DNA of 64,000 nt from Bacilli bacterium (GTDB lineage: Bacteria; Bacillota_I; Bacilli_A; RF39; UBA660), in assembly GCA_017409025.1 (NCBI GenBank), contig JAFQTN010000007.1, positions 1-64,000 of the forward strand, written 5' to 3'. How positions within the stretch are numbered: position 1 is the stretch's first letter; each line of letters begins with the position of its first letter. The translations under genes and the position numbers were made by a program. This document shows positions 32,178-64,000 of the stretch, in pieces. Under the pieces are notes generated by a model. It was not told where the DNA came from and searched no databases. It saw only the letters and a program-made list of their open reading frames with translations.

Positions 32178-32279
32178 TACTAAAATTAAAAAAAATGTAG
32201 AATTTTTTAAATTTATTCAAATTTATTGAAAATATAGATGATATATGTTAAAATTTTCATTAGATAGTAGGTGAATACT

Positions 32280-34118
32280 TTGACTGATAATAAAAGATTA
32301 AGTGATAATAAAAAAAGGTTATTAATATCTATATCAATAGTAGTACTTGCTTTAACTTTAGTTGGTGGTACTTTTGCATATTTAATGCTTGGAATGGATA
32401 TTACTAATGGTAATTATATATCTAAAACTGATTGTTTTGATATTATTTATGATAATACTAATGATGATGGTACAATGGATATTGCAGGTACTTTAATGCC
32501 TTCTGTTAGCTATAAAGGTGGATTATCAGGTAATATGGGTATTGGTTCATCTTGTGATATCGATGCACAAGGTAATTTACTTTTAAATATTAGTGAACAA
32601 TCCTCAATATTAACTAGTCAGGTAGAAGATCATTGTGAGAATATTGATACATTGGAAACTTTACATTATAATCAAACTAAATGTAATAGTACTGAAAATG
32701 CAGTATGGGTCGTTAATGGTTCTGCCTTAAAGTATGCTGTTTATGATGAAAATAATGATGAATTTATTTCGGTTGGGTATGTAGATACTGTTAGTAGAGA
32801 TATAAAAATGTATGAAAATTTTGATATACCATCTGATGGTAGTTTGTTAGATTTTAAAATATATATATGGTTAGATGGTAATTTAGTTGATGAAGGTTAT
32901 TCATTCGCTAGTTTGAGTGGGTATATATATGCCGATGTTAGACAAATTGGTGAAGTTCAACCGGAGGTTCCGGTCTTGGATTCTGGTATGGTGCCAGTAA
33001 CAATAACTGATAATGGTACTGTGATAACTATATCTCCTGATGATTCAAATTGGTATGATTATAATAATAAAGAATGGGCAAATGTTGTATTAGTAAAGGA
33101 AAGTGGAGTAAATTCAAGACAATATTATTTAGATAATTCTAATACAAAGGTATTACAGTCTGATATTTTAGCATATTATGTATGGATACCTCGATATAAG
33201 TATAAAATATCGTCTTTAGAGGCTGTTTCAATTGATATTGATTTTGAAACTGCAGAGTCGGCTATGTCATTAGGAAATGCAAAAACAAACTATAGAACAC
33301 ATCCAGCTTTTTGGTGGGATAATGATAATGATAATGTAGTAGATTCAAATGAAATGTTATCTGGAATATGGGTAGGAAAATTTGAGACAACAGGTTCATC
33401 AACATCTCCGACGATATTACCAAATGCTGTTCCTCTTGTGAAGCAAAAATTAGGTAATCAATTTACAACAAGTCAAAAATTTATTCAATACGGATTATCT
33501 AATTCTAGTACTGATGCTCATTTAATGAAGAATAGTGACTGGGGAGCAGTGGCGTATTTATCACATTCCAAATATGGAATAAATAAAGAAATACGAATAA
33601 ATAATAGTTCTGTATATACAGGTTGTGGTGCAGCTACAGTAGATGATGGTGCAAGTACAACATGTCCAAATGCATTTGGAACAGTGTCAGTATATCCACA
33701 AAGCACAACTGGAAATATAACCGGAGTATTTGATATGTCAGGTGGAAAGAATGAATATGTAATGGGCCATTATGGAGATATACTTACTAGTAATGATAAT
33801 TCAGCTTTTACTGTAATGCCAGATAAAAAATATTACGATTTATATTCAACAACTGTTTTTTCAGGAGATGTTAATAGTAATTTATCAAAATGTACAACAG
33901 AAACATGCGGTGGTCATGCTTTAAATGAAACAGCAGGATGGTATAGTGATAATAAAACGGGAGGTTTTGTTTCTGCTTCAAGTAAGCCTTGGTTCGTACG
34001 TGGTGGATTATACAGCGGTGGAGCATCAGCAGGTATATTTTACTTTAATGACCATTATGGTACTGGATTTGACACCTACTCATGGCGTTCTGCGATTGTA
34101 ACAGGGATTGTAGCGTAG
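32280..34118 (+). CDS. Secreted/anchored protein with C-terminal FGE/C-type-lectin-like domain
   Basis: A basic start (NKRLSDNKKRL) and one helix ending GGTFAY form a signal/anchor. Residues about 35-230 are a beta-rich region like other Firmicute surface proteins. From about residue 250 the formylglycine-generating-enzyme/C-type-lectin fold begins: ILAYYVWIPRYKYK, THPAFWW, GIWVGKFE, SHSKYGINKE, GVFDMSGGKNEYV, and a final RGGLYSGGASAGIFYFND to WRSA. No Cu-binding Cys pair of true FGE is seen, so a ligand-binding role is likelier than catalysis. The TTG at 32280 follows AGGTG; the GTG at 32271 overlaps that site. The C-terminal half has less AT-biased codons than its neighbours. Confidence 0.72.
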   Translation: MTDNKRLSDNKKRLLISISIVVLALTLVGGTFAYLMLGMDITNGNYISKTDCFDIIYDNTNDDGTMDIAGTLMPSVSYKGGLSGNMGIGSSCDIDAQGNLLLNISEQSSILTSQVEDHCENIDTLETLHYNQTKCNSTENAVWVVNGSALKYAVYDENNDEFISVGYVDTVSRDIKMYENFDIPSDGSLLDFKIYIWLDGNLVDEGYSFASLSGYIYADVRQIGEVQPEVPVLDSGMVPVTITDNGTVITISPDDSNWYDYNNKEWANVVLVKESGVNSRQYYLDNSNTKVLQSDILAYYVWIPRYKYKISSLEAVSIDIDFETAESAMSLGNAKTNYRTHPAFWWDNDNDNVVDSNEMLSGIWVGKFETTGSSTSPTILPNAVPLVKQKLGNQFTTSQKFIQYGLSNSSTDAHLMKNSDWGAVAYLSHSKYGINKEIRINNSSVYTGCGAATVDDGASTTCPNAFGTVSVYPQSTTGNITGVFDMSGGKNEYVMGHYGDILTSNDNSAFTVMPDKKYYDLYSTTVFSGDVNSNLSKCTTETCGGHALNETAGWYSDNKTGGFVSASSKPWFVRGGLYSGGASAGIFYFNDHYGTGFDTYSWRSAIVTGIVA

Positions 34119-47285: not shown

Positions 47286-48893
47286 ATGGAAAATAGTTCT
47301 TTTAAAAATAGAAATTTATTAGTATTAGCATTTGAAATATTACTTATTATAGTAGCAATAGGTGGTTTAACTTTCGCTACTTCTAGATTATTAGATAGTA
47401 GTTCTAGTGCAATTTTGACTTTTGGTGAATACAATGTTGATTATATTGGGAAGACTGAAATTGCTGTATCAGAATTAGAACCAATATCTGATAGTTTAAT
47501 TAATTATAATACTAGTGAAGATGTAATTAGAGTAGAGTTTTCTTTCAGGGGAGTAGATACTAATGAGAATGAAGATTTAATATATGATATTATGTTAAAA
47601 GATATTAATATAGATTGTTCTTTATTGAATGAGTATACTAAATGGAATTTATATAAAAATGGAAAATTATTATATAATGGTAATTTTGATCCGGAGTTTG
47701 ATGGTAATATTTTAACTGATAATTATAGATTTACAGAGACTCAACAAGATTTACCTAAACATAATCAAGATTATGATGATTATGTACTAATAATATGGAT
47801 TAGTGAGGCTTGTGAAGATTTAACTAATTGTGAATATGTAGATCAAACTAATATAGTTAATAGCAATTTAGATATGAAATTATTTATAGCAGTATCTACT
47901 GGTAAAAAGGTAGAATATCAAAGAGTTGCTAATGATAATTATGTATGTGTAAATAAACCAGAGTTATATAACAAAATGGTACCTGTTTATTATGATAGTG
48001 GTAATTGGAAGGTAGCGGATACTACTAATAGTGATGTTAGTAAATTATGGTATGATTATGGAAAAGCTAGATGGGCTAATGCAGTAGTTGTTAATACTGA
48101 TAAATATAATAATAGTAAAGTAGGTGCTATAGTTAGTGAAGAAGATATTTTAGCATATTATGTATGGATACCTAGATATAAATATAAATTATGGAATAGT
48201 GAGGAATTAATAACAGATAGTTATAATGCTTATGAAAAGGGAATTGAAATTATATTTGAGAGTGGTGTTAATAGTAGTGGTACTGTTAAGTGTATAGAAG
48301 ATAAATGTAATAGTAAGAATAATAATTATTTAACACATCCAGCTTTTTCAGATAATTTAAGAGGTTTTTGGATAAGCAAATATGAAATAAGTGATGGTAA
48401 TAAATTTATTCCTAATGCATCTATACTTATGAATAAAAATTTAGAAGAATATAATAATATTATAAATAATTTAAGTGTAGATTATGGATTAGAAGATATT
48501 GCTACTAGTCATGTTGTTACTAATTTAGAATGGGGATCAACATTATATTTAAGTCATTCAAAATATGGAATCTGCGATAGTAATGGATGTAAAAGTGTAT
48601 CTGTAAATGATAGTTATATTTCTGAAAAAGATAAGAGAGATACTACTACTAGCGATGTATATGGAGTATATGATATGGCTGGTTCTACTGGTGAATATGT
48701 TCAAGGAACTACTGGTCTTGGTAGTGCGCTATCGGAAGTGATAATTAAAGGTAATGATACTTGGTATAATGGCTACTATAATAATAATTATAAAGATTAT
48801 ATTATACGTGGAGGCGTGGATACGGGATTATTTAATACTGGAGATATTGGGATGACTAATGTATCTACGAGAAGTGTTTTTGTTAGTAAATAG
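47286..48893 (+). CDS. Anchored surface protein with FGE/C-type-lectin-like C-terminal domain
   Basis: One helix (about residues 13-32, ending GGLTFATS) forms a signal/anchor, followed by a beta-rich region (about 40-220). The C-terminal domain from about residue 255 matches the one at 32-34 kb: WYDYGKARWANAVVV, ILAYYVWIPRYKYK, THPAFSDNLRGFWISKYE, LEWGSTLYLSHSKYGIC, YGVYDMAGSTGEYV and IIRGGVDTG. It is probably a surface binding protein. The product is 535 residues. A hairpin and the promoter of the ATPase cluster follow it directly. Confidence 0.72.
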   Translation: MENSSFKNRNLLVLAFEILLIIVAIGGLTFATSRLLDSSSSAILTFGEYNVDYIGKTEIAVSELEPISDSLINYNTSEDVIRVEFSFRGVDTNENEDLIYDIMLKDINIDCSLLNEYTKWNLYKNGKLLYNGNFDPEFDGNILTDNYRFTETQQDLPKHNQDYDDYVLIIWISEACEDLTNCEYVDQTNIVNSNLDMKLFIAVSTGKKVEYQRVANDNYVCVNKPELYNKMVPVYYDSGNWKVADTTNSDVSKLWYDYGKARWANAVVVNTDKYNNSKVGAIVSEEDILAYYVWIPRYKYKLWNSEELITDSYNAYEKGIEIIFESGVNSSGTVKCIEDKCNSKNNNYLTHPAFSDNLRGFWISKYEISDGNKFIPNASILMNKNLEEYNNIINNLSVDYGLEDIATSHVVTNLEWGSTLYLSHSKYGICDSNGCKSVSVNDSYISEKDKRDTTTSDVYGVYDMAGSTGEYVQGTTGLGSALSEVIIKGNDTWYNGYYNNNYKDYIIRGGVDTGLFNTGDIGMTNVSTRSVFVSK

Positions 48894-48973: not shown

Positions 48974-49002
48974 TTGACATAATACTATTAGAATGATATA
49001 AT
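48974..49002 (+). promoter_or_regulatory. Consensus promoter of the surface-protein/ATPase cluster
   Basis: TTGACA (48974-48979), a 17-base spacer and TATAAT (48997-49002): both boxes are perfect. GAGGTGG precedes the first ATG at 49048. Confidence 0.85.
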
Positions 49003-49047
49003 TTTTATAGTATGGGAAAGTACCTAAAATAGTTATGAGGTGGAATA

Positions 49048-52000
49048 ATGAAGAAATTATTTAATAGTAGATTTTTATTTATAATGGCTGCTAGTTTAAT
49101 AGTATTAATATTATTAGTTATTGGAGCTTTTTATTTGTTTGATGACGAGGATAACGAATTTATTAAAAGTGGTTATGTACTTAATCCACTTAGTTCTACT
49201 TCGGAAAAATATTTCTTTAATGAAAATGTTGGCTATAAAGAAAATTTGTCTTCGATGATAGAATTTAAGGATGTGGATGATAATACTGTTACTATTTTAA
49301 AGGATAGTTTTGTTCATTATTTAGATGAATCAATTTCTTTTCTTAAGAATGGGGCTATTTTAGATTTGAATTCTATTGAAGGGAATAGAGCTGTTTCTTT
49401 TTATAATATTACTAATGAATCTGTAATAGAAAAAAAAGATGATAGCTATTTAATTGAATCTGCTAGTGGAGATATTAAACTTAATAATTTTATTGGTAGA
49501 ATTAGTGATGATAAATACATTGTTGTAGGTAATTTGAATTTAAAGATGGCTGGTAATTCTACGATGATTAAGGGCGATTACTTTGAAGTTGTTTATGTAG
49601 AAGAAGGAATTGTAAATATTGAAAACAAAGATGTTAAATATCAAGTTGCTGCAGCAGATACACTTATTCATGTTGACAATGATATTGTAATTGATTTAGG
49701 AAATAAAAAAATTAGTTCTTCGGACCAAGATGTAATGTCAATTACTTCAATAACAATAAATGGCAATGAAAATATTGAAATTGTACCTAAAGCTCCTGAA
49801 AATAACGAAACTGGCTCAGGTGGTGGTTCTGGCTCTGGATCTGGAAGTGGTTCAGGTTCTGGAAGTGGAGATGGAACTGGTTCAGGTGACGGAAGTGGTG
49901 AAGGTACAGGTAATGAAGATGGTGCCGGAGATGGTTCTACCGATGGAAGTGGTTCAGGTGACGGAAGTGGCTCTGGTGGTACTGGTAATGATGGTTCTTT
50001 AGGAGAAGAAACTGATGATGTTACAATTTCTTTGAAAGAAGCTACTATAGGTAGTACAAAAATAGATGTAATATTCGATGTTGTTAATAATACTGAAGAA
50101 GATTTATTTAAATTACAAGTTGTTAATTTAAATACAGGTAGAACTGTGGATATAGTTGCAGAGGTTTTAAAAGATGTTCAAATTCAAGTTAATTTGTTGA
50201 CTCCGAATACTAAGTATTTATTTATGGTTGTTAATGAAAAAGATAATGGTAAATATTTTCAAAAAGTATTAGAAACTACTGGATTTGGTATTAAATTGGA
50301 AAAATCTTATGCTACTGAAAGTTCTTTAGTTTATAAAGTAATTGTTGATGAGAATGCTGATATAACTAATGCTAAATTATCGTTATATAAATTTAATGAA
50401 GAAACGATGCAAAATGAAATTGTGACTACTAGTTATTATGATACTGAGACTGGTGAAATAAAAGAAATAGAAAAAATTACTTATTTATCTAATATAGATG
50501 GTATAGAATCGGGAGAATATGAAATAATTTATGATGGTTTGGATAGCAATACTATTTATACTGCTGTATTGGATGAATTTTCTGTTGCTTCTTCTAATTT
50601 TAAAGATGTATATAATATTACTTTGACATCTATGACTTTAAAGAAAACACCGTCTTTTAACGAAATGGTTGTATCTAAGAATACTAGTAATGGAAGTTTT
50701 GATTTATCTCTTAGTAATATTCAAGATAAGGATAATGCTATTGTTAATTATACTTATATGGTATATAACAAATATGATGATTCGTTGGCAATTAATCCAA
50801 TTGTTAATAACAATGCTTCTCCAATTACTGTTAAAATAGGACAAGGTGCTAATGAACTGAAAAATGATATTAATTATTATTATAAGGTTATTATAGAGTA
50901 TTTTGATAATGAAAAATATATTGAATATATTACTACTGATAGTATTGTTTTTGTAATGGGTACTGATCCTTATATCACTGTTGTTCCTAATAGTAGTTTA
51001 GTTAGTTATGATGCTATTGGTGCAACAATATATTTGAAAGATAATAGTTGTTTAATTTCAATGCCAGGAAGAGAAATGTGTAATGGCAGCAGTAGTACAG
51101 TGATTGAAGTTAGTAGAGTAAATTCTTTAACTGGAGAATTGTTTCCAATATTTACAAAACTTGTAGATTTTGAAGTAACTGATAACGAGATAAAATATGA
51201 TTTATATGTTGATGGACTTCAAGCTGGAACTACATACAATATTGAAGTTCGGGCTGATAGAATTGATATCGAAGGTGAAGATAGAGATTATATTCTTCAT
51301 ACTGATGAGTCAAAAAGAACTATTACAACAAAATCTTTAACAAATTTTATTGCTGAGTGGACAGATTTTGGTAGTAGTGCAAATCATGTTGTTAATTTAG
51401 AAAGTAAATTTATATCAGATGAAGAAACTGGGACAATGACTGGTGAAGAAAGTGCTGCTTCAATTGAAAAGGTTACTATTAAATTATATACGGGAAATAA
51501 TATTACTGATTTAGAAAGTGTTCTTCCGATAGCTACCAAGAATTTTTATAATACTGATGGATTTAATATAAAAGAGCAATTTTATGATAATGGTTATGTT
51601 ATAACTACTGATGAGACATTTGGCCTTAATTTAGAAGCGTTAAAAGATATTGGTGTAGATGGAAAACTAAGCGAATATTATACAATTTTGGTTAATGCTT
51701 ATTATGATATGGCTGGTAAAAATGAAGTTAATTTAACTAATAATGTTACTGCTTATCAGATAAATCCAATATTATTTATGGATGATATTGAAGAACCTAT
51801 TATTGAAATTCAAGGCATTAATAATAGTGCTTCAGGAAATAAATTTAAGAATTTAACTAATAATGGGACAATAGTTGGTTATAAAGTAACAGCAGCGTTT
51901 GATAGAGCTGGTATGGTGCTTAATAAATTGATACCTCAAAAGATTAATTTCTATGTTTATAATTCTAATAAACAGAAAATTAAATTCTATGTGGAGAAAG

Positions 52001-54861
52001 ATAATGGAGATTTACAATTAGTTGATAAAATTTCTTCTGATTTAGGTGAGAGTAATTATTATGAGACTATGATATATATGGATTATGGTACTGCATATGA
52101 AATTAAAGATAGTGTGATGAGTCGTGGAAATTTATTCTATATTGGATACGAAATTGAAACTTTAGCAGATGGTGAATCTTTATTATATCCTGTAGCTAAG
52201 GGAGAGGATACTCCTTCTGATTATGGATTATATGAACTAATTTTATCTGAGAAAGAAACTCCTAGTATTAAGATGTATATCTCTAAATCTGATAGAAATA
52301 GTATTACATATACTTATAATATAAAAGATCCTGATAATGCTTTATATAAAGAAGTAGATAGTGAAAATTATGGATTTTATGCTAAAATTGGTGATGGTAA
52401 TGAGATAAAACTTGATTTAACAAAAACAGACGGTGCTTATAATATGTTTGATGGTAGTGTTACTGTATCTGAAATGAAAAATGGAGATTTATATTCATTA
52501 TATTATAAGAAAAATTTAACAAAGACAGGTTTGTTTGAAACAGATGTTGTTAATTATTTAGATGGTGAAGATTTAGGGGTAAGAATCTTTGATGGATATT
52601 ATGATGCTAATAGTGGTGATTATAATTTTAAATATCAGATTATTAATAATCCTTTAGTAGACAATAAGGTAACTATTAAGATATTAGCTAGTGATGAGAT
52701 GTTAAGTAGAATTTTAAGTTATAAGATTAATTTTACTGATTCTAAGAAAAATACTTTAGATAAAGAACTTTGGAATTTGTCTAGTTGTGATGGTGATTTA
52801 GAAGATGATTTACCAAGATGTCTTTCTATTGATTATACAGAGTTAAAGAATGCTGGTATGAAATCTGAACAAAATAATATAAATTCGATTAAAGTTAAGG
52901 TTGTTGCTTTATATGATAACGGTCTTACTGGATATGATTATAAGGTTGGCAATATGGAAGATGCTGATTATGAATATATGATAATGCAAAATAATAATAC
53001 TGAATTAGGCTTAGGTAATTATGTGTCTTTTGATAATAATGGCGAGTTAGCTTTATGGAATATTGAATTTCCTAAGGGATATTATACTTATTCACGTAGT
53101 AATTCATTAGTATATTATGAAAGTAAATTAAATAAGGCTCATAAGACTAATATTTCTGTTAATTTATCTAGTGTAGGTTATTCTTCACTTTATGGAATTT
53201 TAAATCCTAAAATGGTTTCATCTGATGCAATGGAATGTTCTACTAATGTTGATGGAACTTGTAATACCTTTTCATTTAGTAGTATTACACCTAAGGTAAA
53301 CGTTTCTGAAAAATCTTCTTTATTAAACGGCAGTGTTATGAATTTAGCATTCTCTGGAGTAGATTTAAGTGATATAAAAAATGAAGGTACTAGTAGTGAA
53401 CCAGAATATTATATATATATCGAGACATGGAATGATGAGAGTTTAGTTGGAGAGCTTAGTGCTGTTGTTAGACCAACATTAAAAATAAAATTAGATAATA
53501 ATAGTCCTAATAAATCGATTTCTACAACAATTGATGGATTACAAAAAGATAATAAATATTACTTTAATATTTATGCAAATATGTATATAGATAATAAAGT
53601 GATTTATCAACAGTTATTTGATGCTGGTTATACTGATAGATATGAAAGTAAGACTTATAGTTTTACAACACTTAAACCAAGTGATATATTTCATAGTTTA
53701 AATGTTAGTTATTCATCATCTGGTGAGATATATGGTAATAGAAGTTTAAATACTCAAATTAATTTATCTGCTTATAAGAATAATATTCCTTATAACTTTG
53801 ATTTGGTTTATGTATTGTGTAACGTTGATAATTATGATGAGTGTGGACCAAATGATTCAGATAAAAATATATTTAAGAAAAATATCTCAGTAGATGATAT
53901 ATCAACAAATGTTGTTGATAGTTATGATATATCTGAATTTGATTTAGAATTTGATAAGAATTACTATTTAATGGTATACGCTATTGTAGATACTTATAAG
54001 TTAAATAATAGTAGTGAGTTAATTTTAACAAAAGATAATATTTTACTTAATAGATATGATATTAATGTAAAATTAAAGAAACTAACTGAACCTACTTTTG
54101 TAGTTACTAGAAATGCAGTTTTAGCGGGAATTGATGAGTATGCTATTGATTTTGAAATAGTGGTAAATGATTCAGATAGAACTTTAGAAAATGGTAAATA
54201 CTATGTTAAATTAACTGATATTACTGGTAAAGTTGTTGGCACAATGCAACTTTTGGGTGATGATGGTAATTATTATGATATATCTGATTATGAGAATTAT
54301 GCTTTTGATGCGTTTGTTGTTAATAAGAAAGTAAGAATTACTGGATTAGAACCTGATACAAAATATATTTTTAAAGTATATGGCGATGCATATTTAAATA
54401 ACTATACTGAAGATACTTTACCTGGTAGAGAAAATAGAACATATGAAGTTAATAAAACTTATACTATATATTCTACAAATAATTATGGGGTGGCATTTGG
54501 TAAGGAAATTTTATATAGTGCTACTGAAAAAAGTATAGTTGTAACATTTTCTGGTGGTTCTAACTTTGATAATGTTGTAGAAGTTAATTATACAGTTACG
54601 AATTATGAAGTTGGTGCTAATTATAGTGGTACATTTGTAATTGGAGAAAATAATAAATATTTTGAGATTTATAAGAATTCAGATAACTGGGTATTTATAA
54701 TAGATCCCACTGATATGAAAAATATTTTAGGACAAATATATAATATCAATTTAAGTTTTAAGGTAAAAATACCTGAAACTGAAGAATTTGTTGTTTTAAC
54801 AAGTGCTGATAATCCTAAGTTTGAAGGACAAGTTCTATATGTAGAAGAAGAAAAAAAATAA
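49048..54861 (+). CDS. Giant anchored surface protein with Gly-Ser linker and Fn3-like repeats
   Basis: This 1937-residue protein is the largest in the window. A short basic start and one helix (residues 9-31) anchor it; there is no cleavage or LPxTG signal. Residues about 35-250 are a beta-rich domain. Residues 256-318 are a Gly/Ser/Asp linker. The remaining 1600 residues look like a chain of fibronectin-III-like units, with the F-strand pattern L-x-P/x-x-T-x-Y at about 385 (TPNTKYLFMVV), 498 (DSNTIYTAVL), 723 (QAGTTYNIEV), 1497 (QKDNKYYFNIY) and 1766 (EPDTKYIFKVY). It heads the cluster that ends in an F-type-like ATPase. Function is unknown; adhesin or force-bearing arm is my inference. Confidence 0.8.
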   Translation: MKKLFNSRFLFIMAASLIVLILLVIGAFYLFDDEDNEFIKSGYVLNPLSSTSEKYFFNENVGYKENLSSMIEFKDVDDNTVTILKDSFVHYLDESISFLKNGAILDLNSIEGNRAVSFYNITNESVIEKKDDSYLIESASGDIKLNNFIGRISDDKYIVVGNLNLKMAGNSTMIKGDYFEVVYVEEGIVNIENKDVKYQVAAADTLIHVDNDIVIDLGNKKISSSDQDVMSITSITINGNENIEIVPKAPENNETGSGGGSGSGSGSGSGSGSGDGTGSGDGSGEGTGNEDGAGDGSTDGSGSGDGSGSGGTGNDGSLGEETDDVTISLKEATIGSTKIDVIFDVVNNTEEDLFKLQVVNLNTGRTVDIVAEVLKDVQIQVNLLTPNTKYLFMVVNEKDNGKYFQKVLETTGFGIKLEKSYATESSLVYKVIVDENADITNAKLSLYKFNEETMQNEIVTTSYYDTETGEIKEIEKITYLSNIDGIESGEYEIIYDGLDSNTIYTAVLDEFSVASSNFKDVYNITLTSMTLKKTPSFNEMVVSKNTSNGSFDLSLSNIQDKDNAIVNYTYMVYNKYDDSLAINPIVNNNASPITVKIGQGANELKNDINYYYKVIIEYFDNEKYIEYITTDSIVFVMGTDPYITVVPNSSLVSYDAIGATIYLKDNSCLISMPGREMCNGSSSTVIEVSRVNSLTGELFPIFTKLVDFEVTDNEIKYDLYVDGLQAGTTYNIEVRADRIDIEGEDRDYILHTDESKRTITTKSLTNFIAEWTDFGSSANHVVNLESKFISDEETGTMTGEESAASIEKVTIKLYTGNNITDLESVLPIATKNFYNTDGFNIKEQFYDNGYVITTDETFGLNLEALKDIGVDGKLSEYYTILVNAYYDMAGKNEVNLTNNVTAYQINPILFMDDIEEPIIEIQGINNSASGNKFKNLTNNGTIVGYKVTAAFDRAGMVLNKLIPQKINFYVYNSNKQKIKFYVEKDNGDLQLVDKISSDLGESNYYETMIYMDYGTAYEIKDSVMSRGNLFYIGYEIETLADGESLLYPVAKGEDTPSDYGLYELILSEKETPSIKMYISKSDRNSITYTYNIKDPDNALYKEVDSENYGFYAKIGDGNEIKLDLTKTDGAYNMFDGSVTVSEMKNGDLYSLYYKKNLTKTGLFETDVVNYLDGEDLGVRIFDGYYDANSGDYNFKYQIINNPLVDNKVTIKILASDEMLSRILSYKINFTDSKKNTLDKELWNLSSCDGDLEDDLPRCLSIDYTELKNAGMKSEQNNINSIKVKVVALYDNGLTGYDYKVGNMEDADYEYMIMQNNNTELGLGNYVSFDNNGELALWNIEFPKGYYTYSRSNSLVYYESKLNKAHKTNISVNLSSVGYSSLYGILNPKMVSSDAMECSTNVDGTCNTFSFSSITPKVNVSEKSSLLNGSVMNLAFSGVDLSDIKNEGTSSEPEYYIYIETWNDESLVGELSAVVRPTLKIKLDNNSPNKSISTTIDGLQKDNKYYFNIYANMYIDNKVIYQQLFDAGYTDRYESKTYSFTTLKPSDIFHSLNVSYSSSGEIYGNRSLNTQINLSAYKNNIPYNFDLVYVLCNVDNYDECGPNDSDKNIFKKNISVDDISTNVVDSYDISEFDLEFDKNYYLMVYAIVDTYKLNNSSELILTKDNILLNRYDINVKLKKLTEPTFVVTRNAVLAGIDEYAIDFEIVVNDSDRTLENGKYYVKLTDITGKVVGTMQLLGDDGNYYDISDYENYAFDAFVVNKKVRITGLEPDTKYIFKVYGDAYLNNYTEDTLPGRENRTYEVNKTYTIYSTNNYGVAFGKEILYSATEKSIVVTFSGGSNFDNVVEVNYTVTNYEVGANYSGTFVIGENNKYFEIYKNSDNWVFIIDPTDMKNILGQIYNINLSFKVKIPETEEFVVLTSADNPKFEGQVLYVEEEKK
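49813..50003 (+). repeat. Gly-Ser-rich linker repeats in the giant protein gene
   Basis: Imperfect in-frame repeats of GGWAGTGGTTCAGGT-like units encode (GSG)n with Asp, Glu and Thr. The 20-base string GGTTCAGGTGACGGAAGTGG occurs exactly at 49879-49898 and 49951-49970, 72 bases apart. The tract is much richer in G than its surroundings. Confidence 0.85.
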
Positions 54862-54877
54862 TTGGAGGTTAGAATTT

Positions 54878-56473
54878 ATGAGGAGAAAATATGATATAAG
54901 GAATAAGAAAAATTTTATTATAATTTTAGTGTTATCAATTATTATAGTTACTATTTTCTCCTTATTTATCTATAAATATAGTAAGGCATCTAAAATAGAA
55001 TATATAATTGAATCTGGAAGTGTATTACAAGATGTTGATAAAAATTATCTTTCTATAGATGATGATGCTATATTAAAAATAAGATGGAATGGTAGTTATT
55101 ATTTAGTTTATAATGATGAAAATATTAATTTAGGTAAGAAGGTAATTATATATAATACAATTACTGGTGGTATGAATTTATATGGTACTTTTTACGAAAT
55201 AGGTAGTGATGGTAAAATTATTGAGAATAAGGAAGAGACAGTTTTAGCTAATACTACCAATGCTAAATTTTATAAATTAGATGATAGAGAATATTTAGTA
55301 GTTGATAGGACAATATCTAGTGATGATAAATCTATAGAAGCTAGTAATTATATTTTAGTGGAATTAGATAAAGCAGGTAATGCTAAATTATCTAATAATA
55401 AGATTAATTTAAAGACTATTACTCCTACTAAATTAATTACTTCTAAATATACTTTTGATATTGCTAATGAAATACTTAATTTTGGAAAATATGATATAGA
55501 TTTAAAGAAAATTATTGGAACTACTAATCAGTATAAACCAGAAGATGATGAGAATGGAACTGATAGCGGTACAGGTGATGGTATCGGATCAGGAACGGGT
55601 AGTGGTTCAGACGGAGGAAGTGGAACAGATACCGGAACTGGAAATGGATCGGGAGATGGTGCTGGCTCTGGAACGGGGAGCGGCAATAATATCGGAACAG
55701 GTAGTGGTACTGGATCAGGAACTGGTACAGGTTCTGGTAATGGAATAGGCAGTGGTGAATCTACTGGACCTGGAGATATTATCAATAATGGTGATGTTGG
55801 AAATATTCCTGATATGGATGATATTTTAGATAAGATTAAGATGACGTCTATAATTAGGGTAGTTGAAGGACTTACTCAAATCGATGTTGATTATGTTATA
55901 TATGATCCTTATAATGAATATAAATCTGTTTATGTAGAAGTTATTAAACCTGGAGAAGTGGAGATAGTACATTTATCTAAGACTGATACTCATGTCACTA
56001 TTGATTCACTTAATGCTAATACTGATTATAGACTTAATTTTATATATACTACGGTAAAAAAAGATGTTGAAACTGAAGTTGAAGAATTGATTCCTTATAC
56101 ATTTGAACAATTTGATTTAAGAACTAAGATGCCAGAATATTCTATATCAATTTATAAATTATCTAAAGTAACAAATATACTTACTTATAAAGTTAATTTA
56201 CAAAGTGGATATAGTATATCTTCTCTTAATGTTAATTTATCGTTTGATTATAATGAACTTGATGTCGAGTCTGGAAATATGATACAAAAGAAAGCATCTT
56301 TAGATGGGACTGTTTCTGTAAATAGTGGAAGTAGTTATGTTTTAGGTAATTTTGATATATCTGGTTATGAATTTGATGCTGATACAGTACTTAAGTTAAC
56401 TGTTAAGAATGTTACTAAAGGCGATATAGTACTTCCTGTTAATGCAACATATTCCTTTAGATTTGGGAGGTAG
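54878..56473 (+). CDS. Anchored surface protein, short paralogue of the giant protein
   Basis: This 531-residue protein has the same order as the giant protein: basic start, one helix (about residues 13-31), a beta-rich domain (about 40-225), a Gly-Ser linker (about 227-299), then Fn3-like sequence. The first post-linker segment aligns well: IDVDYVIYDPYN to NANTDYRLNFIYT here against IDVIFDVVNNTE to TPNTKYLFMVVNE in the giant protein. It is therefore a duplicate lacking most of the repeat chain. GGAGG precedes the ATG. The next gene overlaps its end region. Confidence 0.78.
   Translation: MRRKYDIRNKKNFIIILVLSIIIVTIFSLFIYKYSKASKIEYIIESGSVLQDVDKNYLSIDDDAILKIRWNGSYYLVYNDENINLGKKVIIYNTITGGMNLYGTFYEIGSDGKIIENKEETVLANTTNAKFYKLDDREYLVVDRTISSDDKSIEASNYILVELDKAGNAKLSNNKINLKTITPTKLITSKYTFDIANEILNFGKYDIDLKKIIGTTNQYKPEDDENGTDSGTGDGIGSGTGSGSDGGSGTDTGTGNGSGDGAGSGTGSGNNIGTGSGTGSGTGTGSGNGIGSGESTGPGDIINNGDVGNIPDMDDILDKIKMTSIIRVVEGLTQIDVDYVIYDPYNEYKSVYVEVIKPGEVEIVHLSKTDTHVTIDSLNANTDYRLNFIYTTVKKDVETEVEELIPYTFEQFDLRTKMPEYSISIYKLSKVTNILTYKVNLQSGYSISSLNVNLSFDYNELDVESGNMIQKKASLDGTVSVNSGSSYVLGNFDISGYEFDADTVLKLTVKNVTKGDIVLPVNATYSFRFGR
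55556..55774 (+). repeat. Gly-Ser-rich linker repeats in the second surface protein gene
   Basis: In-frame GGTAGTGGTACTGGATCAGG-like units encode G-S-G-T-G-D runs similar to the linker at 49.8 kb. G content is high against an AT-rich background. The long antisense open frame opposite it (Pro-rich) is an artefact of this composition. Confidence 0.85.
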
Positions 56474-56475
56474 TG

Positions 56476-57210
56476 ATGAAAAAAATTATTGAGTTTTGTA
56501 AGGAAAAATATAAAATATTGATACCTTTTATGGTGGGGATAGTACTTCTTGTAACTTTAGTTTTCTTATATAAAGAGTATAGATATGAAAATACTAAAAA
56601 TAAAAAAGAAATTAGTGTATATCAATATTTTGGTGGTATTAGAACTGAATATACTGCTATAGTCACTTATAATCTAAAGGATATTCTTGTTGGTATTGAG
56701 GCTAAGGATAAAAAAATTGAATATGATTCTAAGCCTGTATATTATAAGGATGAGGATAAAGTAATATTTCCTAATGAGATGACTGCTATTTTTCCTTTAA
56801 ATAATGGGTTGCAATATAAAATCTATAAATATGCTACTTATTATAAGGAAAATGATTTACATTATATTAAGAATAGTAGTGATATTGGAAATTATAGTTA
56901 TTTCTTCTTATATGATGGAAAAGATGTATTTTTCTTTCCGGATGAAGTAACACTTAATATTAATAATAAAAAATATAAAGATTTAGGTGCAATGTCTTAT
57001 GTTACTTTAGTTGGAGGTACTACATTAATTTATTATGATACATCTACAGATACATCTGAAGTAATTGAAACTGATAATGATATAGTAACTGTTACTAGTA
57101 ATAATGTCAATGTAAATATTAGTGAACGATACTTTTTATCTTTTGGTAAAAATGTATTATTATTTAGTCCTAATAATTTAAATCCGTTATCCAAAATGAT
57201 TGACAAATAA
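56476..57210 (+). CDS. Third single-pass surface protein of the ATPase cluster
   Basis: This 244-residue protein has one helix (about residues 13-32) and a beta-rich ectodomain resembling in layout the membrane-proximal domains of the two preceding proteins, but it has no linker and no Fn3-like part. The ATG at 56476 follows GGGAGG by five bases; the previous gene stops at 56473. No family is recognised. Its 3' end carries the -35 box of an internal promoter for the ATPase genes. Confidence 0.72.
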   Translation: MKKIIEFCKEKYKILIPFMVGIVLLVTLVFLYKEYRYENTKNKKEISVYQYFGGIRTEYTAIVTYNLKDILVGIEAKDKKIEYDSKPVYYKDEDKVIFPNEMTAIFPLNNGLQYKIYKYATYYKENDLHYIKNSSDIGNYSYFFLYDGKDVFFFPDEVTLNINNKKYKDLGAMSYVTLVGGTTLIYYDTSTDTSEVIETDNDIVTVTSNNVNVNISERYFLSFGKNVLLFSPNNLNPLSKMIDK

Positions 57211-57229
57211 TTATAGCAAATGTTATAAT
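57200..57229 (+). promoter_or_regulatory. Internal promoter before the ATPase genes
   Basis: TTGACA (57200-57205), an 18-base spacer and TATAAT (57224-57229). It would let the ATPase subunits be made in excess over the large surface proteins. Confidence 0.75.
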
Positions 57230-57236
57230 GAAATAA

Positions 57237-57515
<279 letters not shown>

Positions 57516-57516
57516 G

Positions 57517-58281
57517 ATGATTGCTTTATTTGCATTTGTTTGTTTAATTGTTGCCTTTCTTATTTTCTTAATGTTTCTTATTCTTAGAAAGACTGTAAGG
57601 ATCGTCAATGAACAAACAAAATCTTACTTTGTAAATAAGTTACAGGGTTATGACGATTTAATTTCTGAGAGAGAAAACAAACTATTAGAAATTGATGAAT
57701 TAATTAAGAATAGAGAAATAGGGAAAAAGGAAAATAAAAAGGAACTTTCTAAGGGTGGTTATGCGTTTGATACTAATGTTATTGATTTGTTTAATTCTAC
57801 ACAGTATCAAGATAAAAATATATTTGAACTAAATAGAAAAATAGATGAAAATTTTGTAGTTAATTATGAAGAATTAGTTAAAGATTTTTTAACATTTTGT
57901 GATGATTCTAAAGATTATAGTTTTTGTTTAAATTTAAGAAATAAATTTAATAGTGATGAGATATATAGACTTAAAACTTTAATGAATTCAGAATTTGAGG
58001 ATGAATTAAAAGTATTTTTAACTAGTAAGGAATATAAAGTATATGAAGCTTTTAAGTTAATTATTAATGAACATACTATTGAGAATTTTGTAATGTATTT
58101 AGATCAACTTGTAGATTTGAATAGTCCAATGGTAACTATTTTGGTTGGTAGTAAGAATGAAAATTATGATCATTTAAGTGAATATATTGAAACTAAATAC
58201 AACGATAGAATTTATAGAGGACTAAAAATTATATATAAAAATAGAGTATATGATTTTAGTTTAAGTGAAAGGAATATATGA
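57517..58281 (+). CDS. b/delta-like stator fusion protein
   Basis: An N-terminal membrane helix (about residues 3-24) is followed by a charged helix (ERENKLLEIDELIKNREIGK), as in subunit b. The C-terminal part (about 120-250) looks like subunit delta, ending YNDRIYRGLKIIYKNRVYDF, which resembles the delta motif in which a Gly-containing hairpin precedes a D-G/F-S segment. A fused b-delta would tie the membrane part to the F1-like head. It has 254 residues and starts 2 bases after the c-like stop without its own strong ribosome site, so it is probably translationally coupled. Confidence 0.68.
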   Translation: MIALFAFVCLIVAFLIFLMFLILRKTVRIVNEQTKSYFVNKLQGYDDLISERENKLLEIDELIKNREIGKKENKKELSKGGYAFDTNVIDLFNSTQYQDKNIFELNRKIDENFVVNYEELVKDFLTFCDDSKDYSFCLNLRNKFNSDEIYRLKTLMNSEFEDELKVFLTSKEYKVYEAFKLIINEHTIENFVMYLDQLVDLNSPMVTILVGSKNENYDHLSEYIETKYNDRIYRGLKIIYKNRVYDFSLSERNI

Positions 58282-58282
58282 G

Positions 58283-61243
<2,961 letters not shown>

Positions 61244-61244
61244 T

Positions 61245-61781
61245 ATGGATGCAAATGTGATTTTAGAAAATATTATTAATTTCTTATTTGTTGCCTTAAT
61301 ATTTCTTGGAGTATTAGCTGTAACATTTAAGATAACTCTTAAAAATTATAATGTTAAAACTGGTAAATTAAAATTTTATGGATTATTTTTAGGAATGGAT
61401 AATAAATCAATACTTGCATTTGGATCAATTACTTTGAATTATATTTTCTTGATTTGGTGTACTGCTACATTTTCTGGTATGAATATCTTTTATATATTAA
61501 TTACAACGATTTTTGTAGTACTATCTGATATTTTAATTAAAGATTATAGACGTATACCAATAGATTTATTATTTACTTTAATAAATTGTGTATGTATGTT
61601 TGTTATAAGTTTAATTTATGATTATTTAGTTAATGAATATACGACAATATTTTTACTTATAGTACTTGGATTAGTTATTATATTTGTATTTTTATATTTT
61701 ACATATATTACATTTAAGTGGCTAAACAATATAGTACTTAAACAGGAGCATTTACAAAAAAAGAATTATAAAAAACTATAA
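61245..61781 (+). CDS. Five-helix membrane protein of the ATPase cluster
   Basis: The 178-residue protein has about five hydrophobic helices (near residues 10-28, 57-77, 80-98, 106-127 and 134-160) and a basic C-terminus (QEHLQKKNYKKL). It sits between the epsilon-like and gamma-like genes where no ATP synthase gene belongs. It lacks the conserved helix with an essential Arg of subunit a; its only RR pair is in a loop (DYRRIPID). I do not recognise it. It may be the membrane partner that replaces subunit a. Confidence 0.7.
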   Translation: MDANVILENIINFLFVALIFLGVLAVTFKITLKNYNVKTGKLKFYGLFLGMDNKSILAFGSITLNYIFLIWCTATFSGMNIFYILITTIFVVLSDILIKDYRRIPIDLLFTLINCVCMFVISLIYDYLVNEYTTIFLLIVLGLVIIFVFLYFTYITFKWLNNIVLKQEHLQKKNYKKL

Positions 61782-61797
61782 AAGGGGAAGTGAAATA

Positions 61798-62562
61798 ATG
61801 AAAATTAAAAACGTTGTTAAAGTTATGAACTTCCAAGCTCTTCTTAGAATGGATAAATCATTAAAAGAAGCGGATAAATATAGAAATGTTGGTAAAGAAG
61901 TTACTGATATATTAAGTAGGATTATGTATAATAAAAACTTAATATTAGATAAGAAAATATTATTTCCAGAAGCTACTTTACCTGAACTTAATATATATAT
62001 AGCTAATGATTATGGTTTTTGTGGGAATTTTAATTCTGGTATTAGTAAATGTATAAGAAATGATAAAGATGCTTACAAAATTATTATTGGTAAGAAAATA
62101 ATTTATACTGATGATAAGGTATTGTTAAAAATAGATAAAGAGGATTTCTTAAAAAGATTTACTGAAATTGAAAATTGTATAGATAAGGCAGTAAAGTCGA
62201 TGAATTATAGTAGAATTAATGTTTATTATAATCATTATTATTCACTTACTTCATTTGAACTTTTAAAAATACAGTTATTTCCTGTTGAGTTTAAAGGAGA
62301 ATATTATGAAGGTGAAGATTTTGTTGCTGAGACTAATTTAAATAATATACTTGGTAGTTTGATGACATTTTATATATGTTATCAACTTAAGATGTGTGAG
62401 AGTATATCTTATGCAGCAGAGAATGTTTTAAGAACACAAATTACTTCTTCGGCGTTAGAAAAAATTGAAGAAAAAGAAGAAGAACAAAAACATGAAGAAG
62501 CAAAGTTAAAAAAGGAAAAGAGTGTCTTGAAGAGTGTTGAAAACTTTAAAAAGATTGCTTAG
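61798..62562 (+). CDS. F-type ATPase gamma-like rotor subunit
   Basis: Gamma features are visible at both ends: an N-terminal helix (KNVVKVMNFQALLRMDKSL), the Rossmann strand turn IANDYGFCGNFNSGI (about 68-82, parallel to SDRGLCGGFN), and a C-terminal helix with ESISYAAENVLRTQITSSA (parallel to SEHAARMxAMxxAT). The 30-residue tail after that helix (EEKEEEQKHEEAKLKKEK) is extra, highly charged and probably coiled coil. It has 254 residues. A rotor that couples ATP hydrolysis to the c-like ring is therefore retained. GGGGAAG precedes the ATG. Confidence 0.85.
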   Translation: MKIKNVVKVMNFQALLRMDKSLKEADKYRNVGKEVTDILSRIMYNKNLILDKKILFPEATLPELNIYIANDYGFCGNFNSGISKCIRNDKDAYKIIIGKKIIYTDDKVLLKIDKEDFLKRFTEIENCIDKAVKSMNYSRINVYYNHYYSLTSFELLKIQLFPVEFKGEYYEGEDFVAETNLNNILGSLMTFYICYQLKMCESISYAAENVLRTQITSSALEKIEEKEEEQKHEEAKLKKEKSVLKSVENFKKIA

Positions 62563-62579
62563 ATATAGAGGTGATTATA

Positions 62580-64000
62580 ATGATAAGACAAAGTTTAGAA
62601 TTTGATGATATATTAGAGAAGAAGTTTAAAATACTTAGAACTAGTATAATGTTAGGTAATTTAAGAAATAGGGAAGATACTTTAAGAGAGTATGAAGATA
62701 CTGCTAGAGAGATAGATAAGATTAGAAAAAATGTTTATGAAGAACTTTTAGCTAGTAAGTTATATACTACAATAACTTTAGAAGAAGAAGAAACTAGACT
62801 TAAAGATTTAATTACTTTTATTGAAAATAGAATACAAGAAAGAAATGACTTTGTAGACGATTATATTAAAATTACCTCAAACTTTTTAGATGGGCTTGAT
62901 AAAGTTTCTTTAGAAAATGAATTAGATAATTATAAGAATAGATATAGTAATATAGAAGAATATTTGAAAAATTGTGAACAAATAGAGTCTCTTAATAATA
63001 GGTTAAAAGAGTTAAGAGATGGACTTGAGGAAAAGTATGAAAACAAAGCTAATAATGAAATAGTTAATTCTAAATTAGAAGAAGAATTAATTGATGAATT
63101 TAATAAATATATATCTAATTATGAATATTATTCAGAATTAAATTATACGGATATAGATTTAGAACTTACTAAGATTGAAGAATCGTTGTTAGAAAAGAAG
63201 AGTGTATTAGATACATTTTTATCTTCATATCAAGCATTAGTTAATGCTGGTATATCTGGTGCAGAGAGAGAAGAATATGCATCTTATGTATCTGAAGCTA
63301 GAGTTAATTATTATGAAGATTTAGAAAAGAAATATATTTTAAATATATATAAACTAGTACTTGATAAACAAACAGATTATGAAAGATTATATGATAAGAG
63401 AAGTAGAATTGATTCTATATTAAACGAAAGAGAAGAAATGAGAAATTCTCTTGATATAAGTAGAAGAGACGATTTTAAATATTTTGTTACTTTATGTAAT
63501 GAACAATTTAGTATTATTAAATCTCAAAAATTTAATATGGAAAGTATTGATAAATTAATATTAGAAATTTCTGAATGTGAAAATAAATTAACTGAATTAA
63601 TGGAAACTAATAATAGAACTGAAATACAAGATATATTAACTGAATTTTCTGTTGATGCTCCGGAAATTGAAAAAATAGAATTACCAGATGAAAAAGAAGT
63701 TTATGAAGAGGTAATTAAAGACTTAGAAAAGAAACCAGATAATATGGTTGTTAGAATAAGGGATCCAATTAAGATAAATGTTAAGGGTGTTACTGATACT
63801 GCTAAATTAGTAATGAAGAAAGTAGTTATTGTGTTAGAACCTAAGAAATTTAATCAAAAAAGAAATAAATTAAAAGAAGCTGAATTAGAACTAGAAGAAG
63901 AGAAGAAAAATATAGAAGAGTCTATATTAGAAGATAATTTAGTTACTGAGAAAGTTAATGAAAATATAGATAATCAAATAGATTCAGTAGAAGAAATTGA
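62580..64000 (+). CDS. Long cytoplasmic coiled-coil protein, 3' end outside the window
   Basis: The frame opens at ATG 62580 behind AGAGGTG and has no stop up to 64000, giving at least 473 residues. The sequence is dominated by Glu/Lys/Leu heptad-like helices (IEESLLEKKSVLD; KFNQKRNKLKEAELELEEEKK) with no membrane segment or signal. A short beta-like stretch (NMVVRIRDPIKINVKGV) interrupts near residue 390. It is 17 bases after the gamma-like gene and probably belongs to the same machine, as a cytoplasmic scaffold or linker. There is no named family. Confidence 0.7.
   Translation, partial: MIRQSLEFDDILEKKFKILRTSIMLGNLRNREDTLREYEDTAREIDKIRKNVYEELLASKLYTTITLEEEETRLKDLITFIENRIQERNDFVDDYIKITSNFLDGLDKVSLENELDNYKNRYSNIEEYLKNCEQIESLNNRLKELRDGLEEKYENKANNEIVNSKLEEELIDEFNKYISNYEYYSELNYTDIDLELTKIEESLLEKKSVLDTFLSSYQALVNAGISGAEREEYASYVSEARVNYYEDLEKKYILNIYKLVLDKQTDYERLYDKRSRIDSILNEREEMRNSLDISRRDDFKYFVTLCNEQFSIIKSQKFNMESIDKLILEISECENKLTELMETNNRTEIQDILTEFSVDAPEIEKIELPDEKEVYEEVIKDLEKKPDNMVVRIRDPIKINVKGVTDTAKLVMKKVVIVLEPKKFNQKRNKLKEAELELEEEKKNIEESILEDNLVTEKVNENIDNQIDSVEEI

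Follow-up and report, generated by a model that had tools for sequence, protein, structure and literature searches.

An F-type-like ATPase operon without a recognisable ion path, linked to giant surface proteins, in Bacilli and Clostridia

A cluster of genes for an F-type-like ATPase and large surface proteins was analyzed in a Bacilli bacterium of the GTDB family UBA660 (assembly GCA_017409025.1). The window, that is the whole stretch of 64,000 nucleotides under study, corresponds to contig JAFQTN010000007.1, positions 1 to 64,000 (C22:1-64000), of a 1.28 Mb genome that is 95.9% complete. From position 49048 on, 11 genes follow one another on the forward strand in the order S1937, S531, S245, c, b-delta, alpha, beta, epsilon, M5, gamma, and CC640. 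Alpha and beta have retained their catalytic residues, the c subunit has lost its ion-binding acid, no gene for subunit a was found, the genes are under purifying selection, the membrane protein M5 is fused to the surface protein S245 in several relatives, and the motor genes co-occur with the genes for the surface proteins (the arms). We consider it fairly probable that these genes encode an ion-independent rotary ATPase motor that does mechanical work on extracellular arms.

Catalytic head and c subunit

A sequence-only reading of the window had described the catalytic motifs of alpha and beta as intact and the ion-binding acid of the c subunit as missing. Both descriptions were borne out, in the window as well as in its homologues. 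Among proteins of at least 400 amino acids (aa), all 76 distinct beta and all 80 alpha proteins had retained the P-loop Lys and the Walker B Asp. The catalytic Glu was present in all 76 beta proteins, and the Arg finger in all 80 alpha proteins. The ion-binding acid was found in none of 77 distinct c proteins (at least 70 aa), in which the respective column was occupied by T (30), A (24), S (22), or M (1). Canonical c proteins included as controls in the same alignment had E at this position in 5 of 5 cases. The c protein of locus L094 has an Asp beside the acid column, and only one of the 77 had any acid in the segment of the second transmembrane helix (TM2).

The ratios of nonsynonymous to synonymous changes (pN/pS) among four species of the genus were 0.03–0.11 for c, 0.11–0.15 for alpha, and 0.14–0.21 for beta. 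The c gene had the lowest ratio of the 8 genes compared, and it was below alpha and beta in every pair, although its shortness makes the single values noisy. Taken together, the lack of the acid in 77 of 77 c proteins and the strongest constraint on c indicate that the loss of the acid is old and has been maintained.

These results also bear on the idea that the system is what is left of an ATP synthase after the loss of the membrane sector, and is now decaying. Such decay would fit the 349 of 386 genomes of the window's family that had no match to the alpha profile, as well as single broken genes, but it does not agree with the low pN/pS of c, with the catalytic residues kept in all full-length homologues, or with the presence of the same operon in Clostridia that also have a normal enzyme. 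We rejected decay on the grounds of the kept catalytic residues and the low ratio of c, and regard it as highly improbable. The broken genes are the beta gene of locus L038 (G024), which has an in-frame TAA, and the alpha gene of locus L040 (G005), which is split into two reading frames; both could reflect decay or an assembly error.

Subunit a and canonical ATPases

The sequence-only reading had also noted that a gene for subunit a is missing. No such gene lies beside the cluster, and the profile for subunit a (PF00119) was unmatched in the 95.9%-complete window genome and in 21 of 21 family carriers searched (33 carriers in all; one of the 21 is a single contig). A search for a separate, canonical ATPase, which the same reading had proposed, gave no second enzyme in the window genome: PF00006 detected only the alpha/beta pair of the system and no other alpha/beta ATPase. 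Subunit a was present in 5 of 5 Clostridia carriers, where it was located away from the motor system. In four of these genomes (G805, G812, G813, and G814), about 2 kb or less separates it from an alpha/beta gene outside the system, and the distance to the motor system is about 320 kb in G805. G806 has two genes for subunit a. The first is about 2 kb from a partial alpha gene, with a c gene between them, and the second is beside a c gene on a contig of 3,952 bases that ends before any alpha gene; the motor system is on a third contig, apart from both. Kineothrix alysoides has a canonical alpha/beta pair and a subunit a besides the motor system. The anatomy of the encoded subunits supports the view that the motor would be independent of ions.

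Peripheral stalk and M5

The b-delta, epsilon, M5, and 245-aa proteins gave nothing above the Pfam cut-off. For the stalk, profile and structure comparisons were used. The gene that had been called 'b/delta-like' is present, and it is best read as a b-delta fusion. In the AlphaFold2 (AF2) model of the 254-aa protein, one long helix leads away from the membrane to a helical bundle, and the protein ends in beta structure (predicted local distance difference test (pLDDT) 80, predicted template modelling score (pTM) 0.46). The hhalign comparison of its profile with 16 rows of canonical delta, including some copies, gave an E-value of 7e-6 and a probability of 85 for a match of 65 columns, which includes the end of the C-terminal domain of delta; with a smaller delta set, the E-value was 7e-5. 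The hhalign and hmmsearch E-values for this match, for the kinship of the surface domains, and for the M5-S245 fusion all stem from very small comparisons. A Foldseek search with the model listed ATP synthase entries at all ranks from 1 to 34, with a best E-value of 0.014 (probability 0.94) and no match under 0.001. We take the matched chains to be delta, OSCP, or mycobacterial b-delta, partly from their titles. VIA placed chain d of the mycobacterial ATP synthase first (Z 6.5, root-mean-square deviation (rmsd) 29 over 196 residues), with FliH and stalk subunits of the V/A type scoring near it, and chloroplast chain d reached a Z of 5.5 (rmsd 4.6 over 121 residues); all Z values were under 8 and, according to the tool's own warning, could alone be due to chance. 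Because the profile, Foldseek, and VIA routes agree although the single scores are weak, the fold of a fused, membrane-anchored peripheral stalk is well supported.

M5 is predicted to have four to five helices, and it has no invariant residue. Its identification as subunit a was considered and found unsupported, as there was nothing above the Pfam cut-off and no invariant residue. M5 and S245 form one protein in 8 clostridial loci, which come from six assemblies as judged by title. The M5 part of the fused protein scored weakly (8–21 bits), and the S245 part scored 84–115 bits. For a model of the fusion, Foldseek listed nothing under an E-value of 0.001 and no subunit a, which proves little, and VIA gave mixed helical matches only (best Z 8.4).

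The system could also be a diverged ion-pumping ATPase, in which M5 would be an unrecognised subunit a and the ions would use another site in c. The location of M5 within the operon, its four to five helices, the kept and highly constrained c ring, and the lack of another alpha/beta ATPase in the window genome are compatible with a pump, but a pump would have to work with 77 of 77 c proteins that have no acid at the ion-binding position, only one of them having any acid in the TM2 segment, and with an M5 that has no invariant residue. In addition, a canonical alpha/beta pair and a subunit a are found in Kineothrix besides the system, and the Foldseek list for the M5-S245 model contributes a minor point in the same direction. 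We regard an ion pump as improbable.

Linkage and co-occurrence of motor and arms

Linkage was quantified in 85 distinct loci, which are not independent lineages. Upstream of c, S531 was found in 59 of 64 loci for which at least 3 kb of sequence was available, and S1937 was found in 52 of 57 for which the available sequence was at least 7.9 kb. At the level of genomes, an alpha of the system type was found in 33 of the 386 genomes of the window's family, across 18 genera. This number results from 37 matches to the alpha profile minus four, namely G095, G251, and G380, which have canonical operons with an acid-containing c, and G352, which is Rho-like by our reading. S531 was present in 33 of 33 motor genomes, compared with 2 of the 353 others, in searches for alpha and S531 that covered the same number of genomes and the same genome set. 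The two exceptions are a weak partial match in G277 (E 3.5e-6, positions 8–63 only) and the whole arms block in G261. The three genomes with the canonical enzyme have no S531. Kinship among the genomes means that nominal odds have little meaning, and the argument for co-occurrence is its spread over 18 genera. In summary, motor and arms co-occur nearly strictly, and the proposed coupling of the surface proteins to the motor holds genetically.

A scattered occurrence of the surface genes in relatives had been named as a finding that would speak against this coupling. A minority of relatives indeed have them apart from the motor, but even in these genomes they form a block: among 10 loci with S531 off the motor contig, S1937, S531, and S245 were together in 9, and S1937 and S531 in the tenth. 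The contig of G109 ends between arms and motor, and the two might truly be adjacent. S531 was detected in 15 of 16 genomes tested, including the unlinked ones.

Surface arms

All three surface proteins predicted earlier are present; the third has 245 aa from a GTG start and not 244. A single hydrophobic helix is found at the N-terminus of each of S1937, S531, and S245, and their membrane-proximal domains are related by hhalign (E-values of 1e-11 for S531 and S1937, 2e-6 for S245 and S531, and 8e-6 for S245 and S1937). The second giant surface protein of other loci matched S245 with an E-value of 1e-4 and S531 with 3e-4. Its match to S1937 comprised 36 columns outside the domain and was not counted as a common domain. 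The remaining parts of the arms are Fn3-like, Ig-like, collagen-like, or GLUG. A scan of six giant-A/B pairs or single giants, several of them truncated by the end of the locus, gave no catalytic family above its cut-off. The only Pfam family above the cut-off in the surface proteins of the window was fn3, in a search that did not use MIB/MIP profiles. The Kineothrix arms (L155, 1691-8233 and 8302-9972) have collagen-like (Pfam 1e-12) and GGX-type linkers, and the window has Gly/Ser repeats. Camelysin-like surface genes with a weak Peptidase_M73 match are found beside the operon in L033 (2588-3379) and many relatives of several genera, up to four in a row.

The host of the window has genes for a Mur ligase, a family-4 glycosyltransferase (MraY-like), a transpeptidase, and FtsW/RodA. 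Judging from these cell-wall genes, the arms probably have to pass through a wall, which is not the case in mycoplasmas.

The near-strict co-occurrence would fit equally well with an assembly or export machine, in which ATP would serve the insertion, folding, or outward transport of the giant surface proteins and would not move them afterwards. There is a precedent in the same superfamily, because the hexameric ATPase FliI drives protein export, and in G013 four small genes, one of them weakly WXG100-like (E 0.003, below the cut-off), lie directly upstream of c (L039, 10404-11836, minus strand). The arms, however, have a single N-terminal hydrophobic helix like ordinary signal anchors, and S245, which is fused to M5 in 8 loci and shares a domain with the arms, looks like a built-in part. 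The system also has a rotor ring and a stalk, neither of which is known to be needed for export. An export machine is unlikely in our view, and a motor that acts on the arms is preferred.

Distribution, gene orders, and beta tree

The sequence-only reading had suggested a search for the same gene set in related genomes, and the set was found, with a patchy but broad distribution in Bacilli, Lachnospiraceae, and Oscillospiraceae. A scan with the c profile covered one genome per species for 84,980 species and yielded 154 relatives, of which 80 were kept; the two peptide patterns used in the scan lie outside the acid column. The carriers among these 80 of 154 include metagenome-assembled genomes (MAGs) of Bacilli and Erysipelotrichaceae, Lachnospiraceae, Family XIII, Oscillospiraceae, and the cultured Kineothrix alysoides KNHs209. 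Many of the record titles name animal guts or rumen, and many name no source. A scan of viral contigs gave no match.

With the alpha profile, matches were found in 21 of 288 genomes of the order and 4 of 395 genomes of the class, all of them in the window's family; in the family of Kineothrix, 4 of 299 genomes matched. Among the matches listed for the family of G039, searched as a source of mycoplasma Type 2 and 3 sequences, there was one strong alpha/beta pair per genome in addition to weak matches. As judged from the alpha profile, most genomes of the window's family may be without a rotary ATPase. UBA660 is among the gut families without rotary ATPases that are listed in the accessible part of the ProAD report (PMC11738941).

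The gene order is variable. S245 precedes c, as in the window, in 16 of the 64 loci that hold both genes, and follows it in 48, usually in the order giantA-S531-c-bd-alpha-gamma-beta-epsilon-M5-S245-giantB. L165 and L166 are rearranged but linked, with beta-epsilon-M5 before S1937 and c between S531 and S245, and with a very large second giant (at least 3081 aa in L166). A Lachnospiraceae MAG, the Tb.RUG.141 bin, has at least 3 copies of the system (L129, L144, and L159). The alpha proteins encoded in L039 (4888-9138), L094 (8817-11489), and L097 (9506-11995) are considerably extended at the C-terminus and reach up to 1416 aa; the extension in L039 is repetitive.

A tree of beta proteins of at least 430 aa separated 32 canonical rows from 76 system rows with a branch support of 100, and 15 Clostridia rows formed one group with a support of 96. 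The set 'system_f1' in this tree consists of the 61 system rows not listed as Clostridia, including the MAGs L126, L127, and L147, which are Clostridia by title. The root was not used, as three alpha outgroup rows were placed on very long branches inside the system rows.

Comparison with known systems

The window proteins remained below the cut-offs of all NCBIfam models compared. The scores for the canonical models were 368 bits for atpA (cut-off 484), 457 for atpD (463), 45 for gamma (194), and 44 for c (71). The models for the alternate F1F0 (N-type) alpha and beta gave 346 (750) and 415 bits (752), and the best scores with FliI/SctN models were 164 bits for alpha and 227 for beta, with cut-offs of 379.5 and more. 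The mycoplasma models gave 400 bits for MSC_0618 (beta, cut-off 570) and 310 for MSC_0619 (alpha, 520), which represent Type 3, and 375 for MMOB1660 (600) and 358 for MMOB1670 (850), which represent Type 2. The claim that the system is distinct from the mycoplasma F1-like motors of Types 2 and 3 is supported by these scores.

The system shares alpha, beta, gamma, the fold of c, and a delta-like stator with the canonical F1Fo ATP synthase. It differs in that it has neither subunit a nor the ion-binding acid, that b and delta are fused, and that epsilon is short. The ATPases of FliI and type III secretion are single-subunit hexamers without an F-type gamma, whereas the window system has a gamma.

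The Type 3 motor is needed for the function of MIB-MIP in Mycoplasma mycoides, and protection from agglutination was reported to be lost when the motor was deleted or the P-loop of beta was killed (PMC12994834). The authors of that report hypothesize that a conformational change is relayed across the membrane to MIB or MIP (PMC12994834). As far as the accessible parts of the sources go, Types 2 and 3 have no b/delta, a 12-helix protein, and membrane proteins that are not homologous to known F0 subunits (PMC3369863, PMC12994834), and Type 3 has in addition a small cytoplasmic protein and a 2-helix protein (PMC3369863). The Type 3 motor (MSC_0618/0619) with MIB-MIP resembles the window system in being an F1-like motor without a known ion-pumping sector beside large surface proteins. 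However, Type 3 has a 12-helix protein and no b, delta, or c, whereas no protein of the window operon has more than 5 helices, and both a c ring and a b-delta stalk have been retained. The surface proteins appear to differ as well. The sequence-only reading had compared the system with the F1-like X0 ATPases of mycoplasmas; its membrane sector is not of the X0 kind, because it has a c ring and a b-delta stator. By analogy, the system most likely works like a Type 3 motor, though it is not a member of that type because it has kept the ring and the stalk.

For Type 2 (G1-ATPase) of Mycoplasma mobile, an F1-like motor has been proposed to drive extracellular legs (PMC11864180). Its beta has a long N-terminal extension, which the window beta of 451 aa does not have, and the host of the window differs in having cell-wall genes. 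The window alpha aligned to canonical models from residues 9–13 and to two mycoplasma models from residue 33, in keeping with the loss of the stalk-binding N-terminal helix that has been reported for the mycoplasma motors in the accessible text (PMC12994834, PMC11864180).

The ProAD report includes, in the part available, 20 F/N-type candidates with a c subunit without Glu/Asp, which are marked 'non-catalytic' without interpretation (PMC11738941). No taxa, operon, or function are given for these entries there, and subunit a is a required part of the ProAD core set. No description of the system was found in a literature search, which covered few subscription papers and preprints.

Gene layout and promoters

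The features of the operon are compiled in Table 1. The 11 genes on one strand with minimal gaps, as described before, are all present, and the intergenic gaps range from -17 to +56 bp. CC640 is recognisable in only part of the family.

Table 1. Positions of promoters and genes of the operon in the window
Feature	Position	Strand	Evidence
Sigma-70 promoter TTGACA-17-TATAAT, for the surface-arm genes	48974..49002	+	12/12 site; 5/5 genus loci examined
Giant surface protein A (S1937): N-terminal TM, membrane-proximal domain, Gly/Ser linker, Fn3-like repeats	49048..54861	+	Pfam fn3 4e-8
Surface protein S531: TM, domain related to that of S1937, Gly-rich linker, Fn3-like end	54878..56473	+	
Surface protein S245: TM and common membrane-proximal domain	56473..57210	+	Fused to M5 in 8 clostridial loci
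Second promoter TTGACA-18-TATAAT, for the motor genes	57200..57229	+	12/12 site; 7/7 genus loci examined
Acid-less c subunit (putative rotor ring)	57267..57515	+	Pfam ATP-synt_C 1.7e-8
b-delta fusion (putative membrane-anchored peripheral stalk)	57517..58281	+	hhalign to delta, AF2 model, Foldseek/VIA
Alpha subunit	58265..59611	+	Pfam 3.3e-70
Beta subunit (catalytic)	59620..60975	+	Pfam 1.9e-66
Epsilon-like subunit, 91 aa, length of the beta-sandwich only	60968..61243	+	No Pfam match; alignment of 35 homologues; name from position and by-eye pattern
M5, membrane protein of 4–5 helices without invariant residues, not recognisable as subunit a	61245..61781	+	
Gamma subunit (putative central shaft)	61798..62562	+	Pfam ATP-synt 7.5e-20
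Coiled-coil protein CC640	62571..64000 (window edge)	+	Runs on to contig base 64493, 640 aa

The perfect promoter claimed for the start of the cluster is real. A second one, which had not been mentioned, lies inside the operon just 5' of c. Sigma-70 sites with 12 of 12 matches occur three times in the window, on both strands together, compared with 0.31 expected. Outside the genus, the exact pattern was found 5' of c in 1 of 6 loci and 5' of the giant gene in 0 of 2. The conservation of the two perfect promoters within the genus suggests that arms and motor are two transcription modules there. Two further long proteins of the window (32271-34118 and 47286-48893) each have a helix at the N-terminus, and the motifs at their C-termini look alike by eye (YYVWIPRYKYK, DMSG/DMAG).

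Proposed mechanism and implications

According to the proposed mechanism, ATP hydrolysis by the F1 head (alpha3 beta3 gamma epsilon) would turn gamma, epsilon, and the acid-less c ring, and the lack of the acid would uncouple this rotation from ion flow. The b-delta peripheral stalk would hold alpha3 beta3 still, and M5 with S245 would stand in the place of subunit a, as partners in the membrane and outside. S531 and S1937, which are next to c in most loci, would take up the torque outside, because they share the membrane-proximal domain of S245, and the torque of the ring would be delivered as movement of, or strain on, the extracellular arms. We infer the assembly into one complex, the parts that rotate, a continuous rotation or a limited twist, and the mechanical output.

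Several points weigh against this motor. It could instead assemble, export, or remodel the arms. Arms without a detected motor occur in G261, and the motor carrier G856 (locus L184) has no S531. The arm domains (Fn3, Ig-like, collagen, and GLUG) name no substrate, and a second giant protein is found in some clades and not in others. Furthermore, the Foldseek and VIA matches of b-delta are individually weak.

A more specific version is put forward only tentatively, and we hold it to be less probable than the motor in general. The c ring might act as a turntable in the membrane, with ATP powering a rotation or twisting of the S1937-S531 arms on the outside of a walled cell; the stator would consist of b-delta, M5-S245, and, in many clades, the second giant. 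If true, this would be a class of outward mechanical rotary motors apart from the flagellum and from Types 2 and 3 of the mycoplasmas, and it would perhaps picture an intermediate toward the mycoplasma motors, in which the acid is lost and the ring and the stalk are kept.

Coupling to ions is what defines the rotary ATPases. In the present system, the ion site and subunit a have been lost, and yet the ring has remained more strongly constrained than the catalytic head. The carriers are many uncultured, largely gut-derived bacteria and one cultured species. For annotation this is a warning, as matches to alpha, beta, and c in such genomes do not mean ATP synthesis. If the motor moves the arms, it would be a new outward-acting rotary machine, the origin of the mycoplasma F1-like motors would become testable, and commensals would have an unrecognised energised surface structure.

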